Below the pieces are notes generated by a model. It made no database searches and was not told where the DNA came from. It worked only from the letters and a program-made list of their open reading frames with translations. Below are positions 46,765 through 64,000 of a stretch of 64,000 nucleotides of DNA, piece after piece. This stretch comes from Cerasicoccus sp. TK19100 (GTDB lineage: Bacteria > Verrucomicrobiota > Verrucomicrobiia > Opitutales > Cerasicoccaceae), in assembly GCF_027257155.1 (NCBI RefSeq), contig NZ_JAPWDU010000003.1:310001-374000 (forward strand), in the 5' to 3' direction. Position numbers and translations under genes: made by a program. The number at the start of each line of letters is the position of its first letter. Within the stretch, counting starts at the first letter, position 1.

Positions 46765-46808
46765 TTTTCACCACTGTGTCAGCCCACCCCAAACAACATC
46801 TCAAGCCT

Positions 46809-48362: not shown

Positions 48363-48380
48363 CGACTACTCGAAAGCATT

Positions 48381-48917
48381 ATGAAATCACACATCACTGT
48401 TCTCTGCGCGCTCCTGGCGGGGCTCATGCTTGCCGGCTGCGGAACCCTCACCTACGACGGCGGCTCCGTGGCACATCTCGACAAAAACAAAACGACGATC
48501 CTGCTACCCCCTTTTGACAACGCCACCAATGACGAGTTCGCCGGCGTCGCGTTAACGGAGATCACCGCTTCGGCGCTCATGGCGAAAGACGTGCAGCTCT
48601 ACCAAACCGAAGATGTGCGCAACCGCCTGGGCCTGCCGGAAAACGCGGGCGACGGCTCCTACTCAATGCTGGCCAAGGAGGTCGGCGCGCAATACGTGCT
48701 GCTGGGCACCGTGCATGAATACCGCTACAAGACCGACCTCGACGGCGACCCCGCCGTGGGCGTGACCATGCGCCTGGTCGACGTGCAGGACGGCCGTACC
48801 GTCTGGCAAGGCACGGCGTCCGACGTGGGCTTCATCAACGCATCGGTGACCTCTGCCGCGCAAGTGGCCGCCAAGGACCTCGTCAACCGCATGCCACTGA
48901 ACAGCCACCTTAAGTAA
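48381..48917 (+). CDS. pelC: PelC-like outer-membrane lipoprotein
   Basis: The 178-residue protein has a lipoprotein leader with lipobox LAGC (Cys about residue 20). Its fold-like sequence, with TTILLPPFDNATNDEFAGVA and EVGAQYVLLGTVHEYRYK, is characteristic of PelC/CsgG-related lipoproteins. In Pseudomonas, PelC forms a ring that funnels polymer to the PelB barrel. Its place directly after the barrel gene and before pelD matches the canonical operon order. Length is close to the 172 residues of the Pseudomonas protein. Confidence 0.88.
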   Translation: MKSHITVLCALLAGLMLAGCGTLTYDGGSVAHLDKNKTTILLPPFDNATNDEFAGVALTEITASALMAKDVQLYQTEDVRNRLGLPENAGDGSYSMLAKEVGAQYVLLGTVHEYRYKTDLDGDPAVGVTMRLVDVQDGRTVWQGTASDVGFINASVTSAAQVAAKDLVNRMPLNSHLK

Positions 48918-48921
48918 GCGC

Positions 48922-50262
48922 ATGAGCGAAACGACTCCACCCGCCAACGCAAACCGGCGCCAGCGAAGCGCCTGGTTCGATGGCGCAGTCGTATTGGCTT
49001 TGCTGGCGGCCGTTAATTTCATCGCCGCACGGGGAGACGTCGGCATGCTATCGCTGAACCCTACTCCGGCGATCCTCGCGCCACTCGTCGTCGGGCTGTG
49101 GTATGGCGCGATGCCCGGCACCATCATCGGAGCCGTCACCGCCGGGCTGATCATTCTCCTGCGTAGCGTGGGCGGGCAAGACGTTGGCGCGGTTGTTGCC
49201 GAGCATCCGTTCGCGCTGATCTCGTTGCCCGTTCTCGGCGCATTGGTGGGTGAGCTGTTCAACGCCCTACGCAAAGATCAGGAGCGCGCGCAAGCCCAGC
49301 TACAGCACAACAGCGAACGCCTCGCGCAGCTCGGTGCAGACGTGGAGCACATGCGCCAAGTCCGTGATCAGCTCGAGCGCATCCTGCTAAAGCGCGATGC
49401 GTTAACCCTTTCCTTCGACAACGAAATCCGCGCACTCCAGGAAACACCCGCAGAGAGTTTTCCCTCGGCGCTGCTGCAAATGCTCAGCCGCACCGAGCGC
49501 GTTTACGACGCGGCGCTGTATTGGCATAAGGACAAAAAACTGCAGCGCGCGGCGCTGCTTGGGGACGAACGTTTGCTCCCGCCCGAGCTAAGCGACGACG
49601 ACCCCATGATTGCCACGGTTCTTGAAAACGCAGAACTTGCCGCGCTGCCTGCATTCCTCCGAAACGGCAATAATGAAGACCCGGGCACACCATTTCTCGC
49701 AGCATTTCCCCTGCTTGATTCCGATCGCAGAGTGCTGGCTGTCCTCGTAGTAGCGGGCTTGCCGTTTATCAGTTTTGAACGCACGACGCTGAGGCGCATT
49801 GATGCGTTTTGCCGATGGGCCGCGCAAATCGTCGAGCACCGCGAAACGGTGAAGTCGCTCGCCGCGAGGCAGCTCAGCAAGTATGGTAACCGCTACGTCG
49901 TCCCGGAAAATATCTTTAACTCACGCCTTCAGTTGGCGCAGCAGACTTACCGCGAGCTACAGGCACCATTCATCCTGGTGCTGATTGCGGACACGACCAA
50001 AAGCCTGCAACAAGAAGCGCTCGAAAACGCAATGGGCGGCGTATTCCGCGCAGGCGATACGATAACCGTTTTGCCCGGGCCACGGGCCAACCTCGTGTTG
50101 CTCGCCCCCTTTGCCGGAGAGCGCGCCCGCGATGCCATCGACCAGCGGCTCAAGGGAGTCGTCCGCCGCAATAATGGCATGGACTGCGAAATCATTTATT
50201 GGGAAAACACCATGCGCGACCACGCGGAGATCCTTCGCGAGGCCAAGCAAAAAGTGCAATGA
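48922..50262 (+). CDS. pelD: PelD-like cyclic di-GMP receptor of the Pel synthase complex
   Basis: PelD couples cyclic di-GMP to Pel synthesis. The 446-residue protein has about four N-terminal membrane helices (about 20-115), a coiled segment (about 120-160), a GAF domain (about 165-310) and a degenerate GGDEF-like domain (about 325-446) with no GGDEF active site. It keeps an RxxD inhibitory-type site, R376-A-G-D379, close to the position of the ligand-binding RxxD (R367/D370) in P. aeruginosa PelD. The gene starts 4 bases after pelC and its stop overlaps pelE (ATGA). Confidence 0.88.
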   Translation: MSETTPPANANRRQRSAWFDGAVVLALLAAVNFIAARGDVGMLSLNPTPAILAPLVVGLWYGAMPGTIIGAVTAGLIILLRSVGGQDVGAVVAEHPFALISLPVLGALVGELFNALRKDQERAQAQLQHNSERLAQLGADVEHMRQVRDQLERILLKRDALTLSFDNEIRALQETPAESFPSALLQMLSRTERVYDAALYWHKDKKLQRAALLGDERLLPPELSDDDPMIATVLENAELAALPAFLRNGNNEDPGTPFLAAFPLLDSDRRVLAVLVVAGLPFISFERTTLRRIDAFCRWAAQIVEHRETVKSLAARQLSKYGNRYVVPENIFNSRLQLAQQTYRELQAPFILVLIADTTKSLQQEALENAMGGVFRAGDTITVLPGPRANLVLLAPFAGERARDAIDQRLKGVVRRNNGMDCEIIYWENTMRDHAEILREAKQKVQ

Positions 50263-51257
50263 AGCAAACTGCCGCCAAGTTAATCGTCATGCTCGCGCTG
50301 GCCTTGGAGTGCGGGGCCATCGCCGCGTTTGTCAAAGGCGCGGGCGCACTCAGCGGCGGTCTTCACTTGCTGGCGATTGCGGGCTGCATCTACGGCATCG
50401 TGCAGTTGGGATTTCAACGCCATGAGCGCACCGCGAAGTTCAATCTCACTCTTTGGCTGCTCCTGTTGGTCTGCGCCGTGCCCGGCTTGGGCCCGTGGAT
50501 GATTGGTGTGCCCGCGCTTATCTGGACGCGTCCATCGCGCACGGCGCGTCGGGTGCAATTCCTCGGGCCGGAAGACGTTTATCATGGCGACGAGCAACGC
50601 AGCGCCGACCCCGACTACGAAGCCTCGGACATGCTCGCGATCATACGCAGCGATTCAGACGACGAGCGCCGACGCGCAATCCTTGGCCTGCGTACCTACG
50701 ATCCCTCTGCTGCCATTCCCGTGCTCAAGCGATGCCTGCAAGACAGCGATGAGCTCGTCCGCATTTACGCGCAGGGCATCTTACAAAACCTGCAGGAGAA
50801 TCTCGAGAAACGCTCACGCGCGCTGCAAGCCGAGCTCACCGATGAAACCGATACCGACGCCCGTATCAACCTGGAGCTTCGCCTGGCGGAAACCCAGCAT
50901 GAGTATGTGTTCCTAGGATTGGCCGATGAGGAGGTCGCGCGGCGATCCATTATGGAAAATGCGTTGGCCTCGGTGAAGCGTGCGGTCGAGCTGGCCCCCG
51001 AGCGCAACGATTTGCAACTCGTTCAACTGCGCTACGAGATCGAGCTACGCGCCACGGTGGCAGCGGAAGCCACGATGGAAAAACTGCGCACAAACGGCTT
51101 TGACCGCTTTCTCCTGCAACCCTGGGCTTGCGAACTGGCTTACCTCAAACGCGACTGGGCGGCGCTACGTCGACTGGCCGCCGAGGCCGAAGAATCACGC
51201 ATGGCCTACGGCCGCATGCTCAGCGCGTGTGCATTTTGGCGGGAGGGCATGGCATGA
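50259..51257 (+). CDS. pelE: PelE-like inner-membrane TPR protein
   Basis: PelE is an inner-membrane part of the Pel synthase complex with PelD and PelG. The 332-residue protein (about 329 in Pseudomonas) has two or three membrane helices (about 5-95), then a cytoplasmic helical, repeat-like region (about 130-332, with DDERRRAILGLRTYDPSAAI and later paired helices). The start at 50259 overlaps the pelD stop; a longer frame from 50199 would extend into pelD and is rejected. Its stop overlaps pelF. Assignment rests on architecture and operon position, as this family diverges quickly. Confidence 0.82.
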   Translation: MKQTAAKLIVMLALALECGAIAAFVKGAGALSGGLHLLAIAGCIYGIVQLGFQRHERTAKFNLTLWLLLLVCAVPGLGPWMIGVPALIWTRPSRTARRVQFLGPEDVYHGDEQRSADPDYEASDMLAIIRSDSDDERRRAILGLRTYDPSAAIPVLKRCLQDSDELVRIYAQGILQNLQENLEKRSRALQAELTDETDTDARINLELRLAETQHEYVFLGLADEEVARRSIMENALASVKRAVELAPERNDLQLVQLRYEIELRATVAAEATMEKLRTNGFDRFLLQPWACELAYLKRDWAALRRLAAEAEESRMAYGRMLSACAFWREGMA

Positions 51258-52786
51258 GTGAGGAGACGCTGGACCTTTGCCTCATTGCCGAGGGCACTTA
51301 CCCATACGTCGCTGGCGGCGTGTCGGGCGTCGTTGCGCAAATGATCAACGGCATGCCCGATAAAAAGATCGGCATTTTCTATATCGGCAGCTCGGCCGAG
51401 CTTGCGCAAAAGGCCGTGTATCCCGTGCCTGACCACGTAACACATATCCAAAAAGTATTTCTGTTCGAAGGTCTGGGCCCCAATGAAAAACACCGCCACT
51501 GGAAAGCGAATGCCGCCCGTAGCGAGTTTTATCAACGGCTCGGCAACTTTCTGCAGCAAACCCAAAACGAGCAACGGGACGCCGCCTTCGCCCAACTGCT
51601 TGACCACTTTTCCGCATTGGGCGATGCGCTGACCTTCGAGGATTTCTGCGAGGACGATGAGGCATGGGAAGTCATTTGCGATGCATTCAAGCGCTACCTG
51701 CCCAACGTATCGTTCATCGATTATTTTTACACGACGCGGTTTATGATGCTGCCGTTGTGGATTCTGTTTCGCAGCCTGGAGCGCACGCCCAAGGCCCACA
51801 TCTACCACTCCCTGTGCACCGGCTATGCGGGCGTCGTGGCCGTCGAGGCTGCGCGTCGCAACAACGCCCGGTCAATAATCACTGAGCACGGCATCTACGT
51901 CAAAGAGCGCATCTCCGAGATCAGCCTGGCCACCTGGATTCACGAGGCTCGCGAGGCCTACGTAACGGTGGACTCCGACCTCGGTGCCTTGAAAAGACTT
52001 TGGATTGCAAAGTTTCGCTACCTCGCAGAATACTCTTACCGACGATGCGACGCATTGACCACCCTCTACGGCGGTAACCGGCGCATGCAGGAAGAGCTCG
52101 GCGCGCCCCTGAACAAAAGCAGAATCATCCCAAACGGCATCGACCTCGGGGCCTTCGAGCCCGCGTATCACCGCCGCCGCGAACGCCTCGCCAACGCCAA
52201 GCCCAATGTAATCGGATTCGTCGGCCGCGTGGTGCAAATCAAAGATGTCAAAACGCTCCTGCGCGCGATGGCAGATGTCTCCGCGCGTTTGCCCGACGCG
52301 CGACTGGTCTTGATGGGGCCCACCGGCGAAGAGCCGGAATACTTTGAAGAGTGCCAAAAAATGGCCGAGCAGTTAAAGATAACGTCCGTGATTCATTTTG
52401 CCGGAAAACAAAACCTGCGCGAAGCACTGGCCGACATCGACGTAATGGTGCTGACGAGTATCAGCGAAGGCCAGCCCCTCGTGATCCTGGAGGGCTTCGC
52501 GGTGGGTATCCCCTGCGTATCGGCGGATGTCGGCAGCTGCCGCTCGTTGATCCTTGGTGACTCGGATGAAGACCGCGCACTCGGCCCGGCAGGTGACCTG
52601 ACGAAAGTCGCCTCGCCAAGGCAGACTGCAAACGCGTTGGTCAACCTGCTCAGCTCGCCGGAGAAAGTGCAAAAATACGGTGAGAACGGCCGCCAGCGTG
52701 TCACGCGGTTTTATCAACAAGCGGACATTCTCGGTGCCTACCACTCGCTCTACCAGGAATTCATGCCCACGGGCGCAAGCGGCTAA
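51254..52786 (+). CDS. pelF: Pel glycosyltransferase PelF
   Basis: PelF is the cytoplasmic GT4-type polymerase using UDP-sugars. The 510-residue protein (507 in Pseudomonas) has the family N-terminus LIAEGTYPYVAGGVSGVVAQMI, the SIITEHGIYVKER segment, NGIDLGAFEPA and VGFVGRVVQIKDVKTLLRA at the start of the second Rossmann domain, and the nucleotide-sugar motif SISEGQPLVILEGFAVGIPC with the conserved EGxP/E. The ATG at 51254 overlaps the pelE stop. No abnormal residue is seen. Confidence 0.95.
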   Translation: MSEETLDLCLIAEGTYPYVAGGVSGVVAQMINGMPDKKIGIFYIGSSAELAQKAVYPVPDHVTHIQKVFLFEGLGPNEKHRHWKANAARSEFYQRLGNFLQQTQNEQRDAAFAQLLDHFSALGDALTFEDFCEDDEAWEVICDAFKRYLPNVSFIDYFYTTRFMMLPLWILFRSLERTPKAHIYHSLCTGYAGVVAVEAARRNNARSIITEHGIYVKERISEISLATWIHEAREAYVTVDSDLGALKRLWIAKFRYLAEYSYRRCDALTTLYGGNRRMQEELGAPLNKSRIIPNGIDLGAFEPAYHRRRERLANAKPNVIGFVGRVVQIKDVKTLLRAMADVSARLPDARLVLMGPTGEEPEYFEECQKMAEQLKITSVIHFAGKQNLREALADIDVMVLTSISEGQPLVILEGFAVGIPCVSADVGSCRSLILGDSDEDRALGPAGDLTKVASPRQTANALVNLLSSPEKVQKYGENGRQRVTRFYQQADILGAYHSLYQEFMPTGASG

Positions 52787-52791
52787 CGAAC

Positions 52792-54171
52792 ATGGCAGGA
52801 ATCGGATTCGCAATTCGCAAAATGCTCGCCCGCGGGACCGTCCGCGATTCCGTGGCGGCCTACGGCTTTGCCGCATTGATGGGCAGTGGCCCGTGGGTCA
52901 TCTCGATCCTCTCGCTCGCACTGCTCGGCATCGCGGCAGGTGGCTACGATGGCGACCAGGATTTCGAGGTATTTTTCGTTTCGGTAACCTACGCCTTCAG
53001 TTTCAGTTTGATCGCCACTGGCGGCATCCAGCTGCTGCTTTCCCGATGCGCTTCGGACGTGTTGTTCATCGGCGATCAAAAACGGATCGGCGAGCTGCTG
53101 CTCGGTGGCTGCCTGCTATCCATGGCGGTCTCGCTCGCAATCGGGCTGCTGCTGTTTGGCTTTACTTACCCGGGTAACGCCGTTGCCCAATGGTCGTCTA
53201 TTGCGCTGTTTCCGATCCTTGGCGCGGTTTGGACTACCGTGCTCTTTGCCTCGGCACAGAAGGATTACCTCGTTGTCGCCGGCTCGTTTGCCGTTGGCTA
53301 CGGTCTCAGCTTTGCCTTGGCGCTCGGGGCACAAATAATGTTTGGCTCGGCCTACATGATGCCCGGCTTTGTCCTTGGCCAATTGTTGCTGTTCTTCCTG
53401 TTGCTGTATTGGCTGCATCGTGATTTCGGTATCGACCGCACGATCGACATCGGCTTCATCGCCGACGCAAAGCGCTACCCGGCACTCTTTGTTTGCGGCT
53501 TTGCTTACAACCTCGGTATTTGGTCAGACAAGCTGATCTACTGGTATTTCTCCCCGTTTCAAGTTCACCTCGGCGGCGTGCTCTACGCCTGCCCAGTTTA
53601 CGATGTGGCCGTTTATTTAAGCTTCCTGTCGATCGTTCCCGGTATGGCGGTTTTTCTACTGACCATCGAGTCTTCGTTCGCTATCGAGATGGCCGAATAC
53701 ATTGAGGCAATCGAAGCAAAGGCCAACCTTGCGACACTCGAAGAGCGAACACAGCGCATCATCGAGAGCGTGCAGAACGGCTTCTTCACCATGATCAAAG
53801 TGCAGGGCTTGGTGACGATTCTCTTGATCGCGGGCGCGGAGTCCGTGGTATCCAGCTTGGGCATCGGTGCACTGCAGCTATCCATCTTTCGCGTGACTTT
53901 GGTGGCCGCGTTTTTATGCGTGATATTGTTCTCGTTGCTCACGGTGCTCTTCTACCTGGACTGCCTGAAAGAAGCCGCCATCTGCGCCTGCGTGCTCGCG
54001 GTGAGTAACATCGCCTTCACCCTGCTGAGCCTGCGCGTTGGCATCGAGGCCTACGGCGTAGGGCTAATCATGTCCGTCGCGCTGTCGATTGCCGTGGCGT
54101 TTACCTACACCAACCGCAATCTGCATGGCCTGCTGATGCGCACCTTCACCCGAGTCCCGCTCGGCATTTGA
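52792..54171 (+). CDS. pelG: Pel membrane transporter PelG
   Basis: PelG is a polytopic membrane protein of the synthase complex, related to flippases. The 459-residue protein (456 in Pseudomonas) has about twelve hydrophobic helices and the family N-terminus MAGIGFAIRKML, then YAFSFSLIATGGIQLLLSR and GFAYNLGIWSDKLIYW. The N-terminal amphipathic start and the GIWSDK segment are typical. It lies 5 bases after pelF and is the last gene of the pel series; the next gene starts 116 bases on. Confidence 0.95.
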   Translation: MAGIGFAIRKMLARGTVRDSVAAYGFAALMGSGPWVISILSLALLGIAAGGYDGDQDFEVFFVSVTYAFSFSLIATGGIQLLLSRCASDVLFIGDQKRIGELLLGGCLLSMAVSLAIGLLLFGFTYPGNAVAQWSSIALFPILGAVWTTVLFASAQKDYLVVAGSFAVGYGLSFALALGAQIMFGSAYMMPGFVLGQLLLFFLLLYWLHRDFGIDRTIDIGFIADAKRYPALFVCGFAYNLGIWSDKLIYWYFSPFQVHLGGVLYACPVYDVAVYLSFLSIVPGMAVFLLTIESSFAIEMAEYIEAIEAKANLATLEERTQRIIESVQNGFFTMIKVQGLVTILLIAGAESVVSSLGIGALQLSIFRVTLVAAFLCVILFSLLTVLFYLDCLKEAAICACVLAVSNIAFTLLSLRVGIEAYGVGLIMSVALSIAVAFTYTNRNLHGLLMRTFTRVPLGI

Positions 54172-54287: not shown

Positions 54288-54851
54288 ATGTCTGCAACGA
54301 GCGAAGAACCCTTAACCCCACTGCCACAAGGACTTCAGGTCTTACACGACCGCGACTCCTTCATCATTCGTCGGCGGTGGTTTTCGCCACTGGCCATCTT
54401 TTTGGTGTTTTTCACCATCTTCTGGAACGGCTTCATGGTCGTCTGGATGAGCATTGCCCTCGGCAGCGGGGCTTGGCACATGGCCGCCTTTGGCTCACTG
54501 CATGCCCTGGTGGGCATTGGCATGGCCTACTTCTGCGTAGCGAGCTTTGTTAACAAGACGGACGTCTCCGTCGACCCCAACTACCTGAGCGTACGGCATT
54601 ACCCACTCCCCTGGCCAGGGTCAAAGCGACTGCGCGTGCATTCGATCAAACAGCTCTACACCAAGCAGCACATCAGCCGCAGCAAGAACGGTGTCAACAT
54701 CAGCTACCAGCTGTTCGTGATCACGGACGACAACCGCGAGCAAAAGTTACTCAGCGGCTTGGCGGATTCCACGCAGGCCAAATACATCGAGCGCGAAATG
54801 GAAGACGTGATCGGCATTCGCAATGTGCCGGTCAGCGGTGAATACCAATAA
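54288..54851 (+). CDS. Membrane protein of unknown function with PH-like segment
   Basis: The 187-residue protein has an N-terminal cytoplasmic piece, two hydrophobic helices (about 33-90, with PLAIFLVFFTIFWNGFMVVW), and a basic beta-rich C-terminal part (about 95-187, with LSVRHYPLPWPGSKRLRVHSIKQLY) like a bacterial PH domain. It is the first of a run of six same-strand genes that ends with two large caspase-like proteins; the gaps are 3-22 bases or overlaps, except for the 116-base gap before this gene. No enzyme motif is seen. Confidence 0.7.
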   Translation: MSATSEEPLTPLPQGLQVLHDRDSFIIRRRWFSPLAIFLVFFTIFWNGFMVVWMSIALGSGAWHMAAFGSLHALVGIGMAYFCVASFVNKTDVSVDPNYLSVRHYPLPWPGSKRLRVHSIKQLYTKQHISRSKNGVNISYQLFVITDDNREQKLLSGLADSTQAKYIEREMEDVIGIRNVPVSGEYQ

Positions 54852-54855
54852 GGCC

Positions 54856-55326
54856 ATGCCCGAACACCCACCTGTCGAAAGCCGGGCGTGGCTTCTGCTC
54901 GGCCCCGTAAAAAGCCTCCCCGGCGCGTTGCTCTGGGACGGCCAGCGCGTGACCTTTGTTGCGTGCGGCACCGGTAGCTTTAGCGAGTCCGACCTGCGCG
55001 AGATTGCCGAAGCTAATGCATTACCAGCGGAAGCCTGTGAATCCATTTTTGCCGAGAAGCCCACGCCGCTGATCGTCGCTACACCGGCGGAGATTAGCGG
55101 GGTGAAGATGCCCTGGTATTATTTCAAAGGCGGCATCCAGATCACAGTGCGCAACCACGGCTACAAGTTTTCCTTCATCCGTCCGCAGAACACCGTCGAG
55201 CCGACCTACTACCTCGAAGACCAGTTTCGCTGGACGGGTGGCGCCGGCCAGGAAGATGTGGACATCGCCGGGGGCAAGACCGCCGGTGCCAAATGGAAGC
55301 AACTGCTAACCGCCCTTACCCAATAA
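54856..55326 (+). CDS. Small protein of unknown function
   Basis: The 156-residue protein begins with PEHPPVESRAWLLLGPVKSLPGALLW, has no leader or membrane helix, and is beta-rich with EKPTPLIVATPAEISGV, then WYYFKGGIQITVRNHGYKFSF and ALTQ at the end. The start at 54856, 4 bases after the previous stop and preceded by AAGG, is better than an upstream in-frame ATG at 54823. Its place between the PH-like membrane protein and the papain-like protease suggests a shared cytoplasmic role. No family is recognised. Confidence 0.65.
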   Translation: MPEHPPVESRAWLLLGPVKSLPGALLWDGQRVTFVACGTGSFSESDLREIAEANALPAEACESIFAEKPTPLIVATPAEISGVKMPWYYFKGGIQITVRNHGYKFSFIRPQNTVEPTYYLEDQFRWTGGAGQEDVDIAGGKTAGAKWKQLLTALTQ

Positions 55327-55329
55327 CGT

Positions 55330-56835
55330 ATGACGAAACACCTTCGCCCGTTGACTCTCGCGCTGCGCTGCCTGGCATTGGCCACAGTTGCCAGTTGCTC
55401 ACTGCTCTTGGCCCAGGACGCCGACCCCGAAGAAGCCTTTGGGACCGGGCTGGTGTTCGATGTCGAGGCCTACCGCAGCGTGCCTTACAAAGCGCCCGTC
55501 ACGGCCGAGACCTACGCCGACTTGCCCAAATCAGTGTCTCTGGAAAAATACTGTCCCACGCCCGGCGACCAGGGGCCCCACTCCACCTGCACGGGTTTTG
55601 CCGCGGCTTACCACCTGCGCACAATTCTCTACGCCATCGAGAACCAGATGACCAACCGGCGACAGATCGACGACGCCATTTTTTCGCCGACCTTTGTCTA
55701 TGAAAAAATCCGTGATCCCGAGGGCGACCCCAATTGCAAAAAAGGCACCAGCCCCGTCGCCGCGTTGGAGCTGATGCGCAGCGTGGGCGTCGCCCCGCTG
55801 GACGCCGTGCCCTATCTTTGCGGTGCGGGCATAGACTCGGACGACCTGCTCATTGCCACGGAATTCCCCATTGTCGACTACCAGATTCTCTATACGACGA
55901 ACCTGCCCGAGAACGATCCGATCAAAGTCCTCTCGGTTAAAAAGGCGCTCTCCGAGGGCAGCCCGGTGCTGATCTGCTTCAAGGTGCACAAGAGCTTTTA
56001 CCGCGCAAGCGAAGTCTGGCGGCAGCAGGCCACCGACGCCGGCCCCGAGGGCCAACACGGCCTGCACGCAATGGTCGCCGTCGGCTACGATGACAACCGC
56101 TACGGCGGTGCTGTGCGCGTCATTAACAGCTGGGGAACCAAAGAATGGGGCGACCGCGGTTTTGTCTGGATTCCGTATGACGACTTTGCCCGCAACTGCA
56201 TTGGCGCGCTTCAGGCCTATGGCAAGCAACCCAAGCCCAAGCCATACCAGAAGAGCGTGCCTGTCACTCCGGAGACGCCGCTCCTGCTCGCGGGCAGTGT
56301 CGAGTTCGAGGAGCGCGACGGCACCGAGATGCCCGCGATCAAAATCGTGAAGGACGGCGTCAATGCATCGGGCCAACACTTCGAAGGTTACCGCCTCGCG
56401 CGGGCCTACCCCTCCGGCACGCGTTTCCGGTTTTACGTTAACACGAACTCCCGCGCCTATCTCTACGCTTTCGCCACAGACTTGACGGGCAAGATCACGC
56501 AAATCCTGCCCTTCGAAGACGGCATGTCTCCCATGATCGGCAAGGGCAGCACCATCGCGTTTCCCTCGGAGAAAAAAGTCGTCCGCATGGACAACGTCCC
56601 CGGCACCGACTACCTGCTGATGCTTTACTCCGACGAGCCGCTCGATCCCAAGGCGCTCGCCGAAGCCATCGAGGCCAACGAGGGCACGCTCTCGGTGAAA
56701 GTTCACCAGGCCCTCGGCCCGCGCCTGATTCAGCAGGAGCACATCAAGTATGCCGACGACGGTATCGGCTTCGCGATTCAGCAGCAAACGCGCGGACACG
56801 TCGTCCCGCTGATGGTCGAGATCGTGCACGACTAG
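55330..56835 (+). CDS. Exported papain-like (C1A) protease with DUF4384-like C-terminal domain
   Basis: The 501-residue protein has a leader ending near residue 28, a papain-fold domain (about 65-300) and a C-terminal domain like DUF4384 (about 315-500, with YPSGTRFRFYVNTNSRAYLY and LPFEDGMSPMIGKGSTIAFP). The catalytic residues are present: Q81, C87 in DQGPHSTCTGFAA, H246 in GLHAMVAVGYDD and N266 in VINSWGTKEWGDRG. The TGFAAAY after the Cys replaces the usual WAF. It should act in the periplasm or outside the cell. It is 3 bases after the small protein and precedes the caspase-like genes. DUF4384-type domains are often linked to such peptidases. Confidence 0.85.
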   Translation: MTKHLRPLTLALRCLALATVASCSLLLAQDADPEEAFGTGLVFDVEAYRSVPYKAPVTAETYADLPKSVSLEKYCPTPGDQGPHSTCTGFAAAYHLRTILYAIENQMTNRRQIDDAIFSPTFVYEKIRDPEGDPNCKKGTSPVAALELMRSVGVAPLDAVPYLCGAGIDSDDLLIATEFPIVDYQILYTTNLPENDPIKVLSVKKALSEGSPVLICFKVHKSFYRASEVWRQQATDAGPEGQHGLHAMVAVGYDDNRYGGAVRVINSWGTKEWGDRGFVWIPYDDFARNCIGALQAYGKQPKPKPYQKSVPVTPETPLLLAGSVEFEERDGTEMPAIKIVKDGVNASGQHFEGYRLARAYPSGTRFRFYVNTNSRAYLYAFATDLTGKITQILPFEDGMSPMIGKGSTIAFPSEKKVVRMDNVPGTDYLLMLYSDEPLDPKALAEAIEANEGTLSVKVHQALGPRLIQQEHIKYADDGIGFAIQQQTRGHVVPLMVEIVHD

Positions 56836-56857
56836 CCCGCCCATTTCGCGCAACGAT

Positions 56858-57412
56858 ATGATCGAGTATCGCCAACGTTTACATGCCTTCAGCCCGGAGA
56901 TGCACTACCAGTTGCATGAGGGCCAACTCACCGTGAATTCGGCGAAGGGCAATACGAGGCTTTACTCACTCAAAAACGTTCAAAGCGTCCACTTGCGCTA
57001 TGCGCCGACCCGCGTTCAGCGTCAACGTTACCTGGCCACCATTCGGCTAAAAAACAGCCGTAGCCTGAGCCTCAGCAACGAGCATTATCGCGGCGTTTAC
57101 GATTTCGAGGACCGCAGCGCCGACTACCGCGCGTTCGTGCAATCGCTATGCCGCGAGCTCGCCCAACAGCCCAATTGCGGCTTCCACGGAGGCAACTCAC
57201 CCGGCACCAATCTTGCGATCTGGCTAAGCTATTTCGCGGTCATGGGCCTGCTGCTCCTGGTGATGCTTTTCCTCGCGGCGACCTTCCCGCTATTGATCAT
57301 TTTGCAGATCGCCATCATGCTTTTTTACACTCCGGCGCTGATCCGTTACGCGCGCCGCAACAAGTCCCAAACGTTCGATCCCCAACAGATCCACGACAAT
57401 CTTTTACCATGA
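56858..57412 (+). CDS. Membrane protein of unknown function with N-terminal PH-like domain
   Basis: The 184-residue protein has a beta-rich N-terminal domain (about 5-100, with HYQLHEGQLTVNSAKGNTRL and LYSLKNVQSVHLRYAPTR) resembling a PH domain. Two hydrophobic helices (about 118-165) and a basic tail follow. It is roughly the inverse of the 54288 protein, which has helices first and the PH-like domain second. Its stop overlaps the next gene (ATGA), so it is coupled to the first caspase-like protein. No enzyme motif. Confidence 0.65.
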   Translation: MIEYRQRLHAFSPEMHYQLHEGQLTVNSAKGNTRLYSLKNVQSVHLRYAPTRVQRQRYLATIRLKNSRSLSLSNEHYRGVYDFEDRSADYRAFVQSLCRELAQQPNCGFHGGNSPGTNLAIWLSYFAVMGLLLLVMLFLAATFPLLIILQIAIMLFYTPALIRYARRNKSQTFDPQQIHDNLLP

Positions 57413-60400
57413 AAAACGACCGACTCCGCTACGGCATTGCCTTGTTAAAAATCGCCTGCCTTGCGCTGCTCCTTAGCCTTAAGCTGCAAGCTAAAACCGA
57501 TGTAACCGACCACGGCTGGAACGCAATCAGCGGCTGGTCGCCGGATGGAAAACACATCGCAGTAGCCGACTCGTTTGGCATTACGATCTACAACGCTGCG
57601 ACGCTGAAGAAACGCTTCAAAGTGGACGGTGATGCGTCCGCGGTCGGCTTCTTTTCGGCCGACGGGCGCTATTATTACTCGGTCGATTCGCAGGGGCTAA
57701 ACCGGCTCAACCTCTCCAACGCCAAGTCCACTCGAGTCGCCGCGATTGAGAATATTCACCGCGTTTACACCATAGGCAACAATGGCGAGATGGTCGTCGT
57801 GAGCCGTGATAAACCTTACGACGTCAACCGCTACCAAATCCACCTGATCCGCGATGGCAAAGCTCCGCGCGCACTGGCCGAAGTCACCCCCACTGCGGGC
57901 AAGTTCGTCGACGATGTTTGTGTGTTCCCGCACAAGTCCGACGACACCGTACTCATTTATGCCACCGACCAAACACCCCCGAAAACCAATTGGGATTCGG
58001 CCACGATTGCCGGCCACCGCTTTTACTCACTCGACCTGAAAACGGGCAAGCTAGCGCCGCTCTCCACCGTCTCCGAGGAAGATGCCTACAGCTACGGCTT
58101 TAGCTCAATGCGTCCCGTAGTCGGCAAAGATGAGGTCTTCGAAATCGCCGACGGCCTCAAGGGTAACTACGACCTCTTTAACCCCTACACCGGCAAACCC
58201 GTGCGCACGCTCTCGGTGCCGGGAGTGGAGTTCGAGCTCGGCGCGCCGGGCGTCGTCATTTCCAAGCGGACAGTCACCAAGGACGGCTCGACCCAATACT
58301 TTCGCGACTACCTCCAGAGCGGCACGCTAAAAACGATTCGCAATGTCGAGCTGCCCGGCGCCGACACACTCAAGAAGCTGCATGGCTTCGCCCCCTACAA
58401 TGTCGACAAGAACACCGAGTGGCTCAGGCTCGACAACAAACTCGTCGCCCTCGATCTGGAGCAAAGCGCCATCACCTCCGAGCACCCAACCGAGTTCACT
58501 TTCTTTCGCCCCTTGGGTCAGCCAAAGGGTGAGGCCGACACCATGATCCTCCTTGCATCGGGCGACTACGGCACGGGCGACAAGCTGATCAAGTATGACC
58601 TCACGAACAACACCATCCAGTCCACCCAAGCCGCGCCGAACCCGATCAAGTATTCCCGCTTCGCCTTTCACCCAACCGAGCCGGAATTCGTCGCCATCTC
58701 TTCCGAAGGAGACGTCCACGCTTACCGCATTGGGCGCGCCGGGCTGAGCCACATTAACCGCGGCCCCGAAGCATTTTTCGCGGAGTATGCCTCCGATGGC
58801 GAAACCATCTTTGCCCTCGAAAGCTACGACTTCCCCGAGGTCGTCCAGTTCGATGCCGCGCAGTTTCCCGTAGACCCCAAAGCCATACGCTATGAGTCCT
58901 CCCCACCGGCGACAACGATGCCTAACAGCTTAACCGATTTGGTTGTCAGCAAATCCGGCAAATGGCTGATCCAAACCGATAGCTACCGCAGCTATCTCAA
59001 CCGCACCACCGATGGCAAACAGCTCGCGACCTTGGGCGAACACGGTATTCCGCGAGACAGTATTGGCACCATCGATAGCTTGCCCACGGCCTATGCCATT
59101 GCCCCGAATGATGCCAGCTTCGCGAATCTTTCCACCCAAAAAGATTGGGATCAAAACGGTGACGTGATCCACCGCACGACGCTCAACCTAACCCCCATCA
59201 GCGACGACATCTCAGATGAGACCGAGCCGACATGGAGCGTCAAGCTGCCCAACGCCGCCTATCGCCTGATCGGCTATACCGATGACTCACAGGCCGTGCG
59301 CTTGCTCAACCTGCAAAGCGGGGACATCGAAAGCTACGCCGCCAGCAATGGCGAACCAACCGGTAAACAGTCAACGCAGCTTCAGCTTGCAGCGGATTCA
59401 TTTGAAGATCCGGACCTGTTTTCTCCACACGACCTTTCACAGAGCCCAAGCGGCACGCACCTCGTCGTCAAAGACCGCCAGCGCATCGACGTGATCAACT
59501 TGAGCACCGGGACCGTAACCACGCATACGCTTTCCGATCCCATCAACGAAGTCCACTTTCCAGCGGGCGGTGAATTATTCGCTGTTCAGACAGAGTCCGG
59601 CGAGCTGCTTTTCTATCCGCTCGATGCCACTGAGTCCAATGAGCCAAAGGCGGTGCTCACGTTTTACAACGACGGCAATGACTACCTGCTCCAATCGGCC
59701 AACGGCCAGTTCGACGCCAGCCGTCTGTTGCAGGAGCGCGGTGTGTATCAACAAGGCGTCGCGCTCCTGCCGCTCAACCAAATCTTCGACCAGTCCTTCG
59801 AACCAACACTCTTCGGCAGCCTGATGAGCGGTGCCGATCTGCCCGAGACGGCCCTGGACTTCGAGCAGATCGCCCGCGCGCCCACTGCCGAGATTCGGCA
59901 TAACACAAACTACACTGATCGCGTCCAGCTAAAGCTCTCAGCCAAGAGCCCGATTGGCCAGCTGACCACCGTGCAGCTTTATCAAAACGACAAGCTCGTG
60001 AAGGAGTTCGACCCCAAGGCGCGCGATCTGTTCTACGAAGAATTCGAGCTACCGCTGCTGCCCGGTGAAAACCAACTCCAGCTCATCGCGACCAATGCCG
60101 ACGGCATTGCCTCCACACCGGCAGTAGCCACCGTCACCCCACCGCAGTCAGCCAACGAGGCCATTGAAGAACGCAGCGCCGAGCGCACCCTGCACCTGCT
60201 CGTGGTCGGCGTTAACGAATACAAAAACTCGAAGTATAACCTGAACTACGCACTGCCCGACGCCGAGGCCATGCTCGAACAAATCCGTAACGCCAGCGGA
60301 GATCTTTACGACAACATCGAGGTGTATTCCGTCTTCAATCTCGATGCGACCTCAGCCGGCATTATCGACGAGTTTGAGAAAGTCCGCGCCAACGCGCAGC

Positions 60401-60945
60401 CGCAGGATGTGTTCATCTTTTACTTCGCGGGGCATGGGGTTATGTCGACCGAGCTGGAGCAGTTTTACATCGTGCCCAGTGACGTCACCCAAATTTATGG
60501 TGCCGCCGACAGCCTCGAAGCCAACGGCATTTCCAGCCGCCAGCTCCGTGCATTGGCCGAGACCGTGCGCGCGCAGAAGCAGGTCTTTATCCTCGATGCG
60601 TGCAACTCGGGTGGCGCACTGGAGGCCTTTTCCGAGCGTGGGGCTTCACAAGAAAAAGCCATTGCCCAGCTCGCCCGCGCCACGGGCACACACTGGATCA
60701 CCGCGTCCAGCAGCTCGCAGTTTGCGACCGAGTTTGCCGAGCTTGGCCACGGTGCCTTTACCTACGTGCTTCTGCAGGGGCTCAATGGCAAGGCCGACGC
60801 CGGCGACCAGCGCGTAACGATCAACGAGCTTAAGGCTTATCTGGAAAGTGAGCTACCCCGCATCAGCAAGGAATACAAGGGCAGCCCGCAGTATCCAACC
60901 AGCTACGGTTACGGCCGGGATTTCCCCATCTCCGTGCAAAACTAA
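57409..60945 (+). CDS. Large exported caspase-fold protein with N-terminal beta-propeller (first copy)
   Basis: The 1178-residue protein has a leader (about 1-28, with IALLKIACLALLLSLKLQA), a long beta-propeller-like region (about 35-800, beginning WSPDGKHIAVADSFG and FFSADGRYYYSVDSQG), an Ig-like segment, and a C-terminal C14 caspase/metacaspase domain (about 935-1178). The dyad is present: H1009 in YFAGHG and C1065 in LDACNSGG. The start at 57409 is at the leader and overlaps the previous stop; a longer frame from 57148 lies in the membrane gene and is rejected. Such exported caspase relatives may act as Lys/Arg- or other-specific proteases or as scaffolds. Confidence 0.88.
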   Translation: MKNDRLRYGIALLKIACLALLLSLKLQAKTDVTDHGWNAISGWSPDGKHIAVADSFGITIYNAATLKKRFKVDGDASAVGFFSADGRYYYSVDSQGLNRLNLSNAKSTRVAAIENIHRVYTIGNNGEMVVVSRDKPYDVNRYQIHLIRDGKAPRALAEVTPTAGKFVDDVCVFPHKSDDTVLIYATDQTPPKTNWDSATIAGHRFYSLDLKTGKLAPLSTVSEEDAYSYGFSSMRPVVGKDEVFEIADGLKGNYDLFNPYTGKPVRTLSVPGVEFELGAPGVVISKRTVTKDGSTQYFRDYLQSGTLKTIRNVELPGADTLKKLHGFAPYNVDKNTEWLRLDNKLVALDLEQSAITSEHPTEFTFFRPLGQPKGEADTMILLASGDYGTGDKLIKYDLTNNTIQSTQAAPNPIKYSRFAFHPTEPEFVAISSEGDVHAYRIGRAGLSHINRGPEAFFAEYASDGETIFALESYDFPEVVQFDAAQFPVDPKAIRYESSPPATTMPNSLTDLVVSKSGKWLIQTDSYRSYLNRTTDGKQLATLGEHGIPRDSIGTIDSLPTAYAIAPNDASFANLSTQKDWDQNGDVIHRTTLNLTPISDDISDETEPTWSVKLPNAAYRLIGYTDDSQAVRLLNLQSGDIESYAASNGEPTGKQSTQLQLAADSFEDPDLFSPHDLSQSPSGTHLVVKDRQRIDVINLSTGTVTTHTLSDPINEVHFPAGGELFAVQTESGELLFYPLDATESNEPKAVLTFYNDGNDYLLQSANGQFDASRLLQERGVYQQGVALLPLNQIFDQSFEPTLFGSLMSGADLPETALDFEQIARAPTAEIRHNTNYTDRVQLKLSAKSPIGQLTTVQLYQNDKLVKEFDPKARDLFYEEFELPLLPGENQLQLIATNADGIASTPAVATVTPPQSANEAIEERSAERTLHLLVVGVNEYKNSKYNLNYALPDAEAMLEQIRNASGDLYDNIEVYSVFNLDATSAGIIDEFEKVRANAQPQDVFIFYFAGHGVMSTELEQFYIVPSDVTQIYGAADSLEANGISSRQLRALAETVRAQKQVFILDACNSGGALEAFSERGASQEKAIAQLARATGTHWITASSSSQFATEFAELGHGAFTYVLLQGLNGKADAGDQRVTINELKAYLESELPRISKEYKGSPQYPTSYGYGRDFPISVQN

Positions 60946-60957
60946 ACTTCCGCAACG

Positions 60958-63900
60958 ATGAAACGACTTAGCCTAATCCTCCTGTTGCAAGCCCTCATCG
61001 CCGCCACTTCCTGGGCGCAGTTTGAGGACCTTTTTCAATCCGAAGAGAGCGACCCGGAGCACATCGCCCAGAAGGAAGCCGAGGCCAAACGCGACCGTGA
61101 ACTCGGCCCGATCCGCCTGCTCTCGCCCACCACGCACACCCAGCCAGTCCTCGGGGCGCAGGCCTCGGCCAACGGCCAATACTTGCTGACCTACGACGCC
61201 GACCATTTCAAAGTGTGGGACATCGAACAGCGCATTCCCCTCGTCCAGCAGTTGGCCAGCGAACTGCCTTATCAAAGCGAAGGCTCCAAAATCCTCGGTG
61301 TGTATTTTACGAAAACCGAACGCCAAGTGTGCGTCGTTTTGGAGCGGCAGGTTCATTTTTACGATGACTTCAATTTCAGTAAACCGACTGCATTCGGGCA
61401 TCATTACAACGCGCTGGCCCACTGCTTCCACGGCCCATCGCAAAGCGTTTTTCTTCTCAGCACAAAAGAGAAAAATTATCCCCGTGAGACTGATAAGCCG
61501 GTCGCGCTCGTGGTCCGCCAGTGTAAAAACAGCGACGAGAATGCAATGGCCGTCATCGCCGAACTGGAAGTCCCCGGCAACGCCTTCGACGTCACCCGGC
61601 GCTACGCCAGCCAACGCAGCGACTGGCAACTCTCGCTCAATCCCGATGCGACCGAGATGCTCTTTTACACGGGCCCGGAAAGCCCGACACTAAGCATTAT
61701 ACCAGGCGATACACCGTCTTGGAAAAGCATCGACACCAGCAAGGCCATCGTCGGCTTCCTGCCCGATGGGCGGTTGCTTGCCGCGCAAAAAAACAGTGAT
61801 GGCTATCAGCTAAGTTTCGGCACCAGCGCGGCCGACATGCAAAACCCATGGGTCAGCCTTTCCGAGCCGCATGCCTCGCGCCAGCTCAAGATCAGCATCC
61901 CACCAACCGATGAAGGGCTCCTCTTCGCGACCACTTCAACGACGTTTGCGACTTACGATTTCACCAACACGATCGCCAGCCAGGGCATTCATTTAACCGG
62001 CCAAACCGCGGAAGCCGCAGCCCCGCTAATCGCGTCTCAAAAGCATGAGCAACTGGTCCTGTTTCGCAACGCAGAAGACGTCAGCCAGATCGAGCGCTTT
62101 AGCCCCGAGCGCAGCCTCATGCTCGGTGCCTGGACCACGCTCGCCTGGACGCCTGACAGTGTCTACCCGCTGGACAATGCTTTTCGTTTTATCGCTAAGC
62201 GCGGTCGCCAAATGCGCCTCGTCGAGCTGCTCGACAACGGCGTGAATGGACGCGATCTCAGCAGCCTCCCTGTCAATCGCCCCATTGCCGCCATCGCCGC
62301 CCCACTCGATGGTGAGCACTGGTATTACTTCTTCCATGGCGGAGAGTATGCTCGCTTCAACCCGAAGTCGGGTGAAGCGCTCGCAGTAAAATCACTCGGC
62401 CCGAATCGCTTTAAACACGCTAATGGCTACTCCTACTCGCTTGGCGGTTTCTATGGCAGCTCGGCCTCGGCAGACCAGCGATACATTGCGCTCCATTACA
62501 ACACGCAGGCCTTCGTGTTCGACACCGATCAAGGCAGCGTTGTCGACACCATGCAATTTCCCAACAACATCGCGTTTGTGCCGGGCAAGGGTTCAATGGT
62601 CGCGCTTTCGCCCAACGGCCAACTGCTCGCTTATGGCTACGGCACATCCCAAGACGGCAAGGCGATCTACCACCTTTGCCTCTATGATCGCGCCACACGC
62701 CGCGAGCGATGGCATAAAGAGATGGACCCACACCAAGGCGAATCCTTTTTGTTCAACCTAAACTTTTTCGAGCAAGGCCAACAGCTTTTCGCGACCGATA
62801 GCGGCGGGCGGCAATACGTTACCATCGATGCGCAAACCGGCGAATTCACCCGCCAACCGACCTTCGCATACCAAGGCCCGGGGCCTCTCCATTTCTCTGC
62901 GCGCGGCAACCAATACTTCACGACAAAGGAGACCAAGCTGCTGCAATATGCTTTACCCGGTGCGTCGCTCAAACAAAGCATCGACCTCGGCTCACAGCCT
63001 GATTTTTACGGCCCCATCGGCAGTGAGCGCTTTATCCTTTCCTATCGAAGCGGCGCTTCTCAGCTACAGCTCACGGACTTGTCCAAGCAAGCGGTCGTGG
63101 CCGACATCTATCTCTTCGACGACGAAAAGCAGTGGCTCATCCGCAATCCGCAGACGGGTTTATTTACCTCCAACAACGACGCGCAGGAACACCTTTTCTA
63201 CGTGCGCAGCGACCACCTCAACCCGCTGGCCGCCTACTTCGATAAATTTTACCGCCCACGCCTGATGGGATCGCTGATTCAAGGACTCAGCCCGAAGCCC
63301 ACGCTCGACGTCGAGCAACTGCGGTTCGCTCCACGCCTCACGGTCCAGATCGACGGTCCACAAAAGCGCGGGCTCACAGTGGAAGACGAGTTCGAAACCG
63401 TCGAGGTCCCCGAGGAAAGTGTCACGCTGAAAGTCACTGCCAGCTGCGAAGGCAGCCCAATCCAGGACATCCGCATTTACCAGAACGGCAAACTCGTAAC
63501 CGGCGGCACACGCGGCTTATTTGTCGAGGACGACGAACCAGAAGAAGCCGACGAGGATCAACTCTATGAGCGCGAGGAGAGCTTCACCTTCACCCTCGCC
63601 GAAGGCCGCAACCGCTTTCGGGCCATCGCAATCAACGACCAAGGCACGGAATCCATGGCCGATGAAATCATCGTCTATTCCGCAGACGCGCCCGAGCCGA
63701 CCAACCAAGGCCTCGCGCTACACCTGTTCGTGGTCGGCATCAATGAATACGCCAATCCGGACCATAACTTGAACTACGCCCAGGCAGATGCCACCGCCGT
63801 GCGCGACCTCTTGCAAAAGCAAAGCGCCAACATCTTTAGCCGCACGCAGGTTTATTCGCTGATCAACGAGGAAGCGACCCGCGAGAACATCATCGCAACG

Positions 63901-64000
63901 TTGGAGAACATCAAGGCCGAAGCTTCACCGCGCGATGCTTTCATCTTCTACTTCGCAGGCCATGGCGTGGTGTCTGACGATGCGCTGGCCGCGTTCTACC
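60958..64000 (+). CDS. Large exported caspase-fold protein with beta-propeller (second copy, 3' end outside the window)
   Basis: The frame begins at ATG 60958, 13 bases after the first copy, and stays open to the window end (about 1014 residues). It has a leader (MKRLSLILLLQALIAATSWAQ), a beta-propeller-like region (about 60-830), an Ig-like segment (about 865-920, with VTLKVTASCEGSPIQDIRIYQ) and the start of a caspase fold with LHLFVVGINEY, NLNYAQADA and the catalytic H1002 in FYFAGHG. The catalytic cysteine part lies beyond the window. The common plan with the preceding gene indicates duplication followed by strong divergence of the propeller part. Confidence 0.85.
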   Translation, partial: MKRLSLILLLQALIAATSWAQFEDLFQSEESDPEHIAQKEAEAKRDRELGPIRLLSPTTHTQPVLGAQASANGQYLLTYDADHFKVWDIEQRIPLVQQLASELPYQSEGSKILGVYFTKTERQVCVVLERQVHFYDDFNFSKPTAFGHHYNALAHCFHGPSQSVFLLSTKEKNYPRETDKPVALVVRQCKNSDENAMAVIAELEVPGNAFDVTRRYASQRSDWQLSLNPDATEMLFYTGPESPTLSIIPGDTPSWKSIDTSKAIVGFLPDGRLLAAQKNSDGYQLSFGTSAADMQNPWVSLSEPHASRQLKISIPPTDEGLLFATTSTTFATYDFTNTIASQGIHLTGQTAEAAAPLIASQKHEQLVLFRNAEDVSQIERFSPERSLMLGAWTTLAWTPDSVYPLDNAFRFIAKRGRQMRLVELLDNGVNGRDLSSLPVNRPIAAIAAPLDGEHWYYFFHGGEYARFNPKSGEALAVKSLGPNRFKHANGYSYSLGGFYGSSASADQRYIALHYNTQAFVFDTDQGSVVDTMQFPNNIAFVPGKGSMVALSPNGQLLAYGYGTSQDGKAIYHLCLYDRATRRERWHKEMDPHQGESFLFNLNFFEQGQQLFATDSGGRQYVTIDAQTGEFTRQPTFAYQGPGPLHFSARGNQYFTTKETKLLQYALPGASLKQSIDLGSQPDFYGPIGSERFILSYRSGASQLQLTDLSKQAVVADIYLFDDEKQWLIRNPQTGLFTSNNDAQEHLFYVRSDHLNPLAAYFDKFYRPRLMGSLIQGLSPKPTLDVEQLRFAPRLTVQIDGPQKRGLTVEDEFETVEVPEESVTLKVTASCEGSPIQDIRIYQNGKLVTGGTRGLFVEDDEPEEADEDQLYEREESFTFTLAEGRNRFRAIAINDQGTESMADEIIVYSADAPEPTNQGLALHLFVVGINEYANPDHNLNYAQADATAVRDLLQKQSANIFSRTQVYSLINEEATRENIIATLENIKAEASPRDAFIFYFAGHGVVSDDALAAFY

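Follow-up and report, generated by a model that had tools for sequence, protein, structure and literature searches.

What function could bring two clans of cysteine protease, predicted to be exported, together with several pleckstrin homology (PH)-type proteins in one bacterial operon? The question is raised by a locus of Cerasicoccus sp. TK19100 (Verrucomicrobiota) at the end of a 64,000-nucleotide stretch, hereafter the window, which spans positions 310,001 to 374,000 of contig NZ_JAPWDU010000003.1 (G000:C3:310001-374000). Six intact open reading frames, all on the + strand, run from 54288 to beyond 64000. Our results suggest, with a probability that we put at about 45%, that this patchily distributed and partly block-exchanged operon is an exported cysteine-protease module of the class Opitutia that cuts surface or foreign proteins. 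Its genes, numbered P1 to P6, are as follows.

54288..54851, + strand: P1, 187 residues, PH barrel with an inserted two-helix membrane hairpin (AlphaFold model, Foldseek, VIA-align, hydropathy)
54856..55326, + strand: P2, 156 residues, free-standing PH-fold protein without a strong hydrophobic segment (AlphaFold model, VIA-align, Foldseek, hydropathy)
55330..56835, + strand: P3, 501 residues, papain-like protease, predicted to be exported, with C-terminal DUF4384 (Pfam, PDB profile matches, catalytic residues)
56858..57412, + strand: P4, 184 residues, probable N-terminal PH domain and C-terminal membrane region, an optional member (sequence reading, hydropathy)
57409..60945, + strand: P5, 1178 residues, signal peptide, N-terminal beta-propeller-like region and C-terminal caspase (C14) domain (Pfam, residues)
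60958..64000, cut by the window end, + strand: P6, 1171 residues, beta-propeller caspase, predicted to be exported (profile match, catalytic residues)

The tight packing claimed in a preliminary description of this DNA holds, with gaps of 3 to 22 bases plus one overlap. P1 and P2 are 4 bases apart (an in-frame ATG at 54823 would make P2 overlap P1), P2 and P3 are separated by 3 bases, P3 and P4 by 22 and P5 and P6 by 12, and the ATG of P5 overlaps the stop of P4 by 4 bases. When the sequence was extended past 64000, as that description had proposed, P6 was completed at 1171 residues; its stop falls 473 bases beyond the window end, at what would be position 64473. The next gene, identified by reading as an ion-channel gene, is convergent; hence, the operon ends after P6. 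Among 10 genomes this channel gene was found only in G000, the control, and G004. Recent acquisition of foreign DNA was considered on the basis of composition, and no sign of it was seen (GC content of 55.7-61.2% for the six genes and 58.2% for the window).

A papain-like protease and its adjoining caspases

P3 has the Gln-Cys-His-Asn site of the papain family (C1), comprising Q81, C87, H246 and N266, all invariant in 6/6 aligned sequences, and matches Pfam Peptidase_C1 at 31.1 bits (cut-off 20.7) and DUF4384 at 39.6 bits (cut-off 27). Its PDB profile matches are papain-like proteases, the best being 3ois (E 1.5e-16). P5 and P6 are caspase-like proteins (C14, orthocaspase type), each with a domain above the cut-off and a His-Cys dyad. 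Peptidase_C14 scores 65.2 bits in P5 and 33.5 bits in P6 as cut by the window end; in the whole genome the two caspases score 69.7 and 73 bits (cut-off 21.4). The dyad is H1009/C1065 in P5, and in P6 it consists of H1002, inside the window, and C1059, whose codon lies outside at the equivalent of 64132. The preliminary description had named C87/H246/N266 and the DUF4384 tail of P3, the H1009/C1065 dyad and two exported propeller/caspase proteins of at least 1000 residues, all of which was confirmed, export remaining a prediction. An N-terminal hydrophobic segment of the signal-peptide type is seen by hydropathy in P3, P5 and P6 alike. The only NCBIfam model listed for both caspases is NF047832 (Caspase, EACC1-associated type), and their scores of 93.7 and 95.7 bits fall below its 140-bit cut-off. 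For P6, a profile of eight aligned N-terminal parts matches the propellers 1l0q (E 1e-6) and PkwA 5yzv (E 2e-5); support for a propeller is weaker in P5, where Pfam propeller models score below their cut-offs and the best PDB match has an E value of 0.027.

These proteases recur together. A search for orthologues of P3 (E below 1e-180) gave 5 among 387 genomes of the phylum and 7 among 263 of the order (adding G440 and G554), and three further genomes were reached via P2, two of Pelagicoccus (L056, L057) and Puniceicoccaceae K14 (L058). This makes ten genomes of class Opitutia, window included; Coraliomargarita and Pelagicoccus are placed by NCBI in this class, order Puniceicoccales. In 10/10 genomes the P3 orthologue adjoins at least two caspase genes whose products are predicted to be exported, and 9/10 operons have exactly one P5-type and exactly one P6-type caspase. 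The suggestion that two protease clans form one unit is therefore upheld as a conserved feature. The gene orders are given below; A and B are labels for two genes between P3 and P5.

Window (G000): P1-P2-P3-P4-P5-P6
G041 and, identically, G423 (L056): P1-P2-P3-P5-P6
G424 (L057): P1-P2-P3-A-B-P5-P6, with a transposase-like gene between P5 and P6
G425 (L058): P2-P3-A-B-P5-P6
G097: P2-P3-A-B-(P4 remnant)-P5-P6
G554: (weak P1 remnant, E 9.1e-4)-P2-P3-two further caspases-transposase-like gene-P5-P6
G440: P3-P5-P6
G140: P5-P6-P3-propeller/TPR-TPR/CHAT-P2
G137: P3-beta-helix-caspase-caspase-beta-helix-caspase

The transposase-like gene between caspase genes in G424 and G554 is, by reading, of the REP-associated type (L129:14910-15518 and L141:3650-4267). 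The beta-helix protein of G137 is related to the N-terminal part of one caspase of G097 and one of G554, which indicates that the part in front of the caspase varies. Replacement of the caspases by the CHAT protein in G140 was considered and rejected, as that genome holds both caspases, the papain, a propeller-TPR protein, the CHAT protein and P2.

The operon is, by sequence comparison, a conserved but patchy module. It holds 23 of the 29 caspase matches of the eight operon genomes that were searched whole. Among 54 relatives any caspase was found in four and two caspases only in G000 and G041, the same genomes that have a P3 orthologue; two more have weak papain matches. No caspase match and no P3 orthologue was found in three genomes of the same genus and six others of the same family. 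Weak papain matches in nine genomes (E 1e-11 to 1e-36) were not counted as orthologues, and those of G032 and G006 were treated likewise. In the neighbourhoods listed for four weak-papain genomes (G073 at two places, G088, G224 and G109), caspases lie near only that of G224, and these are of another kind. This Verrucomicrobiota cluster (L135:1918-18110) comprises a papain-like gene and four caspase-like genes, the latter lacking an evident signal peptide, as well as a pair of genes resembling, by reading, a sigma factor and an anti-sigma factor; it is a papain-caspase association separate from the P3/P5/P6 operon.

Covariation of the two caspases

The ten operons hold 29 caspases, collected regardless of active site; Pfam C14 identified 23 of them, in eight genomes, and phmmer the 6 of G440 and G554. 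GHG and DAC residues are present in 29/29, so that each has an Asp two residues before the catalytic Cys; a motif script that kept only frames with both GHG and DAC returned the same list as the independently found set. An Asp at this position is linked to basic cleavage specificity in caspase-like peptidases. Orthocaspases cleave after positively charged residues (PMC6426788). Signal peptides were assigned to 23/29 caspases by a home-made heuristic and to the remaining 6 by eye. A tree of the 29 caspase domains has separate clades for P5 and P6, both supported at 100/99 and both containing one row per genome from nine genomes (all but G137), while the 11 caspases outside these clades come from G097, G424, G425, G554 and G137.

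On sequence evidence P5 and P6 form a matched pair of long standing, whose members change together as one block. Between the identity matrices of the nine genomes that have P3, P5 and P6, the correlation is 0.98 for P5-P6 and 0.59 for both P3-P5 and P3-P6, and the partial correlation of P5 and P6 given P3 is 0.970, a value reached by 0 of 20000 label permutations (calculated from rounded tables). Because the two caspases covary with each other and less so with the papain, the pair appears to have been exchanged as a block. G041 and G097, for example, share 93% identity in the papain, 37% in P5 and 40% in P6, and the window and G097 share 65%, 59% and 61%, respectively; only these last two, among the ten operons, have P4 or a P4 remnant. 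The trees of P3, P5 and P6 agree with exchange of the pair, with a long branch for P5 of G554 and an odd composition in G140. The approximately unbiased (AU) test rejected a grouping of the window with G097 for P3 (p-AU 1.05e-5) and a grouping of G041 with G097 for P5 (1.12e-5) and P6 (1.15e-4), and on caspase domains alone the values were 2.4e-4 and 3.6e-7. Divergence is concentrated in the N-terminal parts, which are 29-55% identical between the window and eight others as against 57-84% for the caspase domains; between genomes the propeller halves are mostly about 30% identical and the caspase domains about 65%.

PH-type proteins and the surroundings of the operon

The AlphaFold model of P1 (14 sequences) has a predicted local distance difference test (pLDDT) score of 90.2 and consists, in order, of strands 16-21 and 24-30, helices 34-60 and 63-88, six strands and a helix. 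The preliminary description had P1 as a two-helix membrane protein with a PH-like tail; helices and PH domain are both present, but in the model the membrane hairpin sits inside the barrel, inserted after strand 2. A PH barrel that carries two membrane helices between its second and third strands is the architecture of EROS and Ycf4. Indeed, the top Foldseek match of the P1 model is human EROS (8kei_D, E 9.3e-7, probability 1.00), the sole match below E 0.001, with the next at E 0.14, and VIA-align superposes 150/164 residues on 8kei_D with a Z score of 11.0 and a root-mean-square deviation of 4.0. The next VIA-align rows are for a helix-hairpin protein that covers the membrane helices alone (Z 9.6 and 9.3), and PH-domain rows follow at Z 8.5 and lower. 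No Pfam family matched P1 with an E value better than 0.44, and P1 is not filed as a member of EROS/Ycf4, with which it shares an architecture only, because no sequence relationship was found.

P2, which had been taken for a small unknown, turns out to have a PH fold. Its model (19 sequences, alignment A3; pLDDT 84.8) has seven main strands that form a barrel capped by a C-terminal helix, which is the PH superfold. The matches listed by VIA-align are PH, PTB, FERM-F3 and related domains (Z about 10-11, best 11.0), and PH-containing chains head the Foldseek matches, none of which is below E 0.001 (best 1.5e-3). At the level of sequence no Pfam family matched P2, and among 19 relatives a single one reaches a PH-type Pfam model (PH_BEACH, E 0.23). 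Two hits were dropped from this family, that of G176, which has an internal stop and is spurious on reading, and L068, which was omitted from alignment A3. A viral origin of P2 was also considered, and a scan of viral contigs gave no relative. P4 has Pfam matches below the cut-offs only and is, on its sequence, probably a PH domain followed by a membrane region.

Paired membrane anchors, which the preliminary description had made part of the unit, are not a constant part of it: P2 is present in 8/10 operons, an intact adjacent P1 in 4/10 and an intact P4 in 1/10, the window, and all three families have members elsewhere. The C-terminal remnant of P4 that precedes P5 in G097 corresponds to residues 117-184. 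That description had also held that the unit would fall if its genes occurred independently of each other in other genomes; they do for the P1, P2 and P4 families and do not for P3 with P5/P6. Relatives of P1 occur in 19, of P2 in 7 (one spurious) and of P4 in 8 of the 387 phylum genomes, counts that include the genome of the window and weak matches. P1 relatives lie away from the operon in G097, G425 and G440, and searches of G137 and G140 gave none. G137 also gave no P2, and G440 was searched for P2 at the operon only. The listed stretches of ten P1-relative neighbourhoods contain no caspase or papain match. P2 relatives occupy 16 loci, five of them operons, and the other 11, from several phyla, have no P1, papain or caspase match in the listed stretch. 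Such absences of partners around lone P1, P2 or P4 relatives are weak evidence because the gene lists come from a home-made longest-reading-frame filter that miscalls GC-rich DNA; in some neighbourhoods, e.g., L046, L048, L053, L060-L065, L067 and L068, a spurious frame hides the query family.

Several relatives have distinctive features or neighbours. A four-cysteine, zinc-ribbon-like N-terminus precedes the split PH domain of the P1 relatives at L047:9748-10482 and L049:9898-10599, and a second P1 relative, 33% identical, is found off-operon in the genome of the window itself (L050:9939-10478, G000:C4). Beside P2 relatives of Saprospiraceae and Pseudonocardia, thus in two phyla, there is a MOSC-like gene by reading (L059:9020-9856 and L060:7887-8786). 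The P2 relative of G085 (L020:5274-11825) lies between a fusion of a DacZ-type cyclase with PTS EIIA (Pfam) and a 1565-residue protein that looks exported and has no Pfam matches. In G012 (L022:9875-12564) a DNA cytosine methyltransferase-like gene (by reading), an unknown gene and the P2 relative follow each other on one strand.

Upstream of the operon, at window positions 41691-54171, is a pel cluster, which may be accessory too. A link to it was examined and rejected: eight pel-cluster proteins of the window, searched with phmmer at E 1e-5, had no match in 17 loci around the nine other operons, while the window matched itself as a positive control. pel is incidental to the operon. PelG was not found in 11 genomes (three of the same genus, six of the same family, G041 and G140), a search that included no genome known to match.

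Proposed function and comparison with known systems

If the operon is an exported module that cuts surface or foreign proteins, P3, P5 and P6 would travel through Sec to the periplasm or cell surface, where P5 and P6 would act as Arg/Lys-directed endopeptidases targeted by their fast-changing propellers, as partners that either form one complex or act one after the other. P3 would be a common activator or companion, which matures the caspases or finishes their products. The PH proteins would work at the cytoplasmic face of the inner membrane, where P1, being built like EROS, would assist assembly or stability. Surface or foreign proteins would be more likely targets than bulk nutrients, and they would be cut for processing or in the course of conflict with neighbours. 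A stricter scheme, an extracytoplasmic initiator-executioner cascade in which an exported papain activates a matched, interchangeable caspase pair, the propellers pick the victim protein or cell and the EROS-like P1 and the free PH protein, acting from the cytoplasmic side, assemble or license the machinery, is in our opinion doubtful. Were it true, the swapping of the caspase pair as a cassette would make the whole modular, for recognizing surfaces or for conflict between bacteria, and P1 would correspond in bacteria to the assembly factors EROS and Ycf4.

Several observations weigh against an exported module of this kind or against parts of it. G137 and G440 are without an adjacent P2 and six operons are without an intact adjacent P1, so that the core can do without the PH proteins, and the caspases of G137 fall in neither the P5 nor the P6 clade. 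The strongest case of exchange rests on G097, a contig of a metagenome assembly that is possibly chimeric, despite which the P4 remnant sits at its expected place, and the groups subjected to the AU test were named after the trees had been seen. The low identity of the propellers may reflect relaxed constraint instead of diversifying selection, and action of P3 ahead of the caspases is a proposal only. The likeness of P1 to EROS is structural only, a matter of the model: Ycf4/DUF4564 is absent from the nine Pfam families listed (E up to 1) for 14 aligned P1 relatives, and a PDB profile search (E up to 10) returned one unrelated chain and no EROS.

It is also possible that the proteases are an extracellular nutrient kit, which digests proteins at the surface with the caspases as Arg/Lys endopeptidases and the papain as a general protease. 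Their signal peptides fit this use, and extracellular degradation has been speculated for some betaproteobacterial metacaspases in a survey of the Baltic Sea (PMC4933709). However, a reading of the operons revealed neither a transporter gene nor an additional peptidase gene, and a matched pair that changes as a block, together with PH proteins, exceeds the needs of a feeding enzyme; we consider this use unlikely. A similarly low rating is given to envelope maturation, in which P3, P5 and P6 would act on surface proteins of the cell itself, for processing or turnover, a role comparable to that of the gingipains, which are exported clan CD proteases. The export signals, the conserved catalytic parts, the predicted place of the PH proteins at the inner membrane and a P1 built like a membrane-protein assembly factor are in keeping with such a task, but the absence from all nine same-genus and same-family genomes is odd for core processing and the divergence of the propellers suggests changing targets.

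A death or defence function had been raised in the preliminary description; such a system would be triggered by phage or rivals and would kill the carrier or the attacker. Caspase-type proteases do occur in bacterial conflict systems (PMC8195603), and the patchy distribution of the operon, the exchange in blocks and the tandem growth to four caspases would suit one. The proteases are predicted to be exported, however, and a Pfam scan of the six proteins listed no death-like or TRADD-N adaptor domain and no nucleotide-binding domain. PADLOC, run on eight proteins, gave only a generic caspase model (P5 and P6) and matched no described anti-phage system; for 10 flanking proteins of five operons it gave generic helicase, ATPase or phosphatase-type matches in 3/10 and no system. 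This function therefore seems improbable. Least credible of all is the absence of any functional unit, i.e., an operon of convenience that gathers widespread single families. Each of the families of P1, P2 and P4 is also represented in places that lack the operon, whereas papain and caspases stay together in 10/10 genomes and P5 and P6 travel together; such an origin is already unlikely for P3/P5/P6 and possible for P1 and P4. The recurrence of the protease core with paired caspase exchange suggests, as far as sequences can, a real protein-cutting system outside the cytoplasm, and the matched pair leads to a direct biochemical prediction, that of two partner caspases.

Among the titles listed from the open-licence literature of PubMed Central, none describes this operon. 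Bacterial caspases are mostly discussed as enzymes of death or immunity, whereas here up to four per operon are predicted to be exported and accompany a papain. The closest comparison is with the metacaspase operons of Asplund-Samuelsson 2012 (PMC3501461), in which caspase genes likewise lie in operons, some of them multi-caspase, with WD40 as the commonest partner domain and proteolysis domains among the neighbours. Those operons differ in having at most three caspases, as against up to four here, predicted to be exported and found with papain-DUF4384. In that paper the multi-caspase operons belong to four groups, which do not include Verrucomicrobia, and the words papain, DUF4384 and Verrucomicrobia are absent from its text. 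The Baltic Sea survey calls Verrucomicrobia metacaspase-deprived, with metacaspases not found or under-represented (PMC4933709). The same accessory domains are known from cyanobacterial orthocaspases carrying DUF4384 or WD40 (PMC7475262) and, in the case of DUF4384, from an alphaproteobacterial pseudo-orthocaspase clade (PMC6426788). In the operon described here, by contrast, DUF4384 sits on the papain, and the caspases have a signal peptide, an N-terminal propeller and a C-terminal caspase domain.

For P1 the comparison is with EROS/CYBC1 and Ycf4. In EROS a pair of membrane helices interrupts a PH domain between its second and third strands, a build that its authors describe as not seen before in any known structure, PIGH being a second, predicted example (PMC9767466), and Ycf4 has been called the plant orthologue of EROS (PMC5379978). 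In the open-licence literature of PubMed Central nothing was found that links Ycf4 with the terms pleckstrin and bacterial. P1 shares the barrel and the position of the two helices, with a match over nearly its whole length, and differs in having no detected sequence similarity and in being a bacterial protein encoded beside proteases that are predicted to be exported. The model hence points to a bacterial protein with the PH-plus-inserted-membrane-hairpin build. Overall, we rate the locus, from its sequence, as a bacterial caspase operon type with an unusual exported, paired layout.

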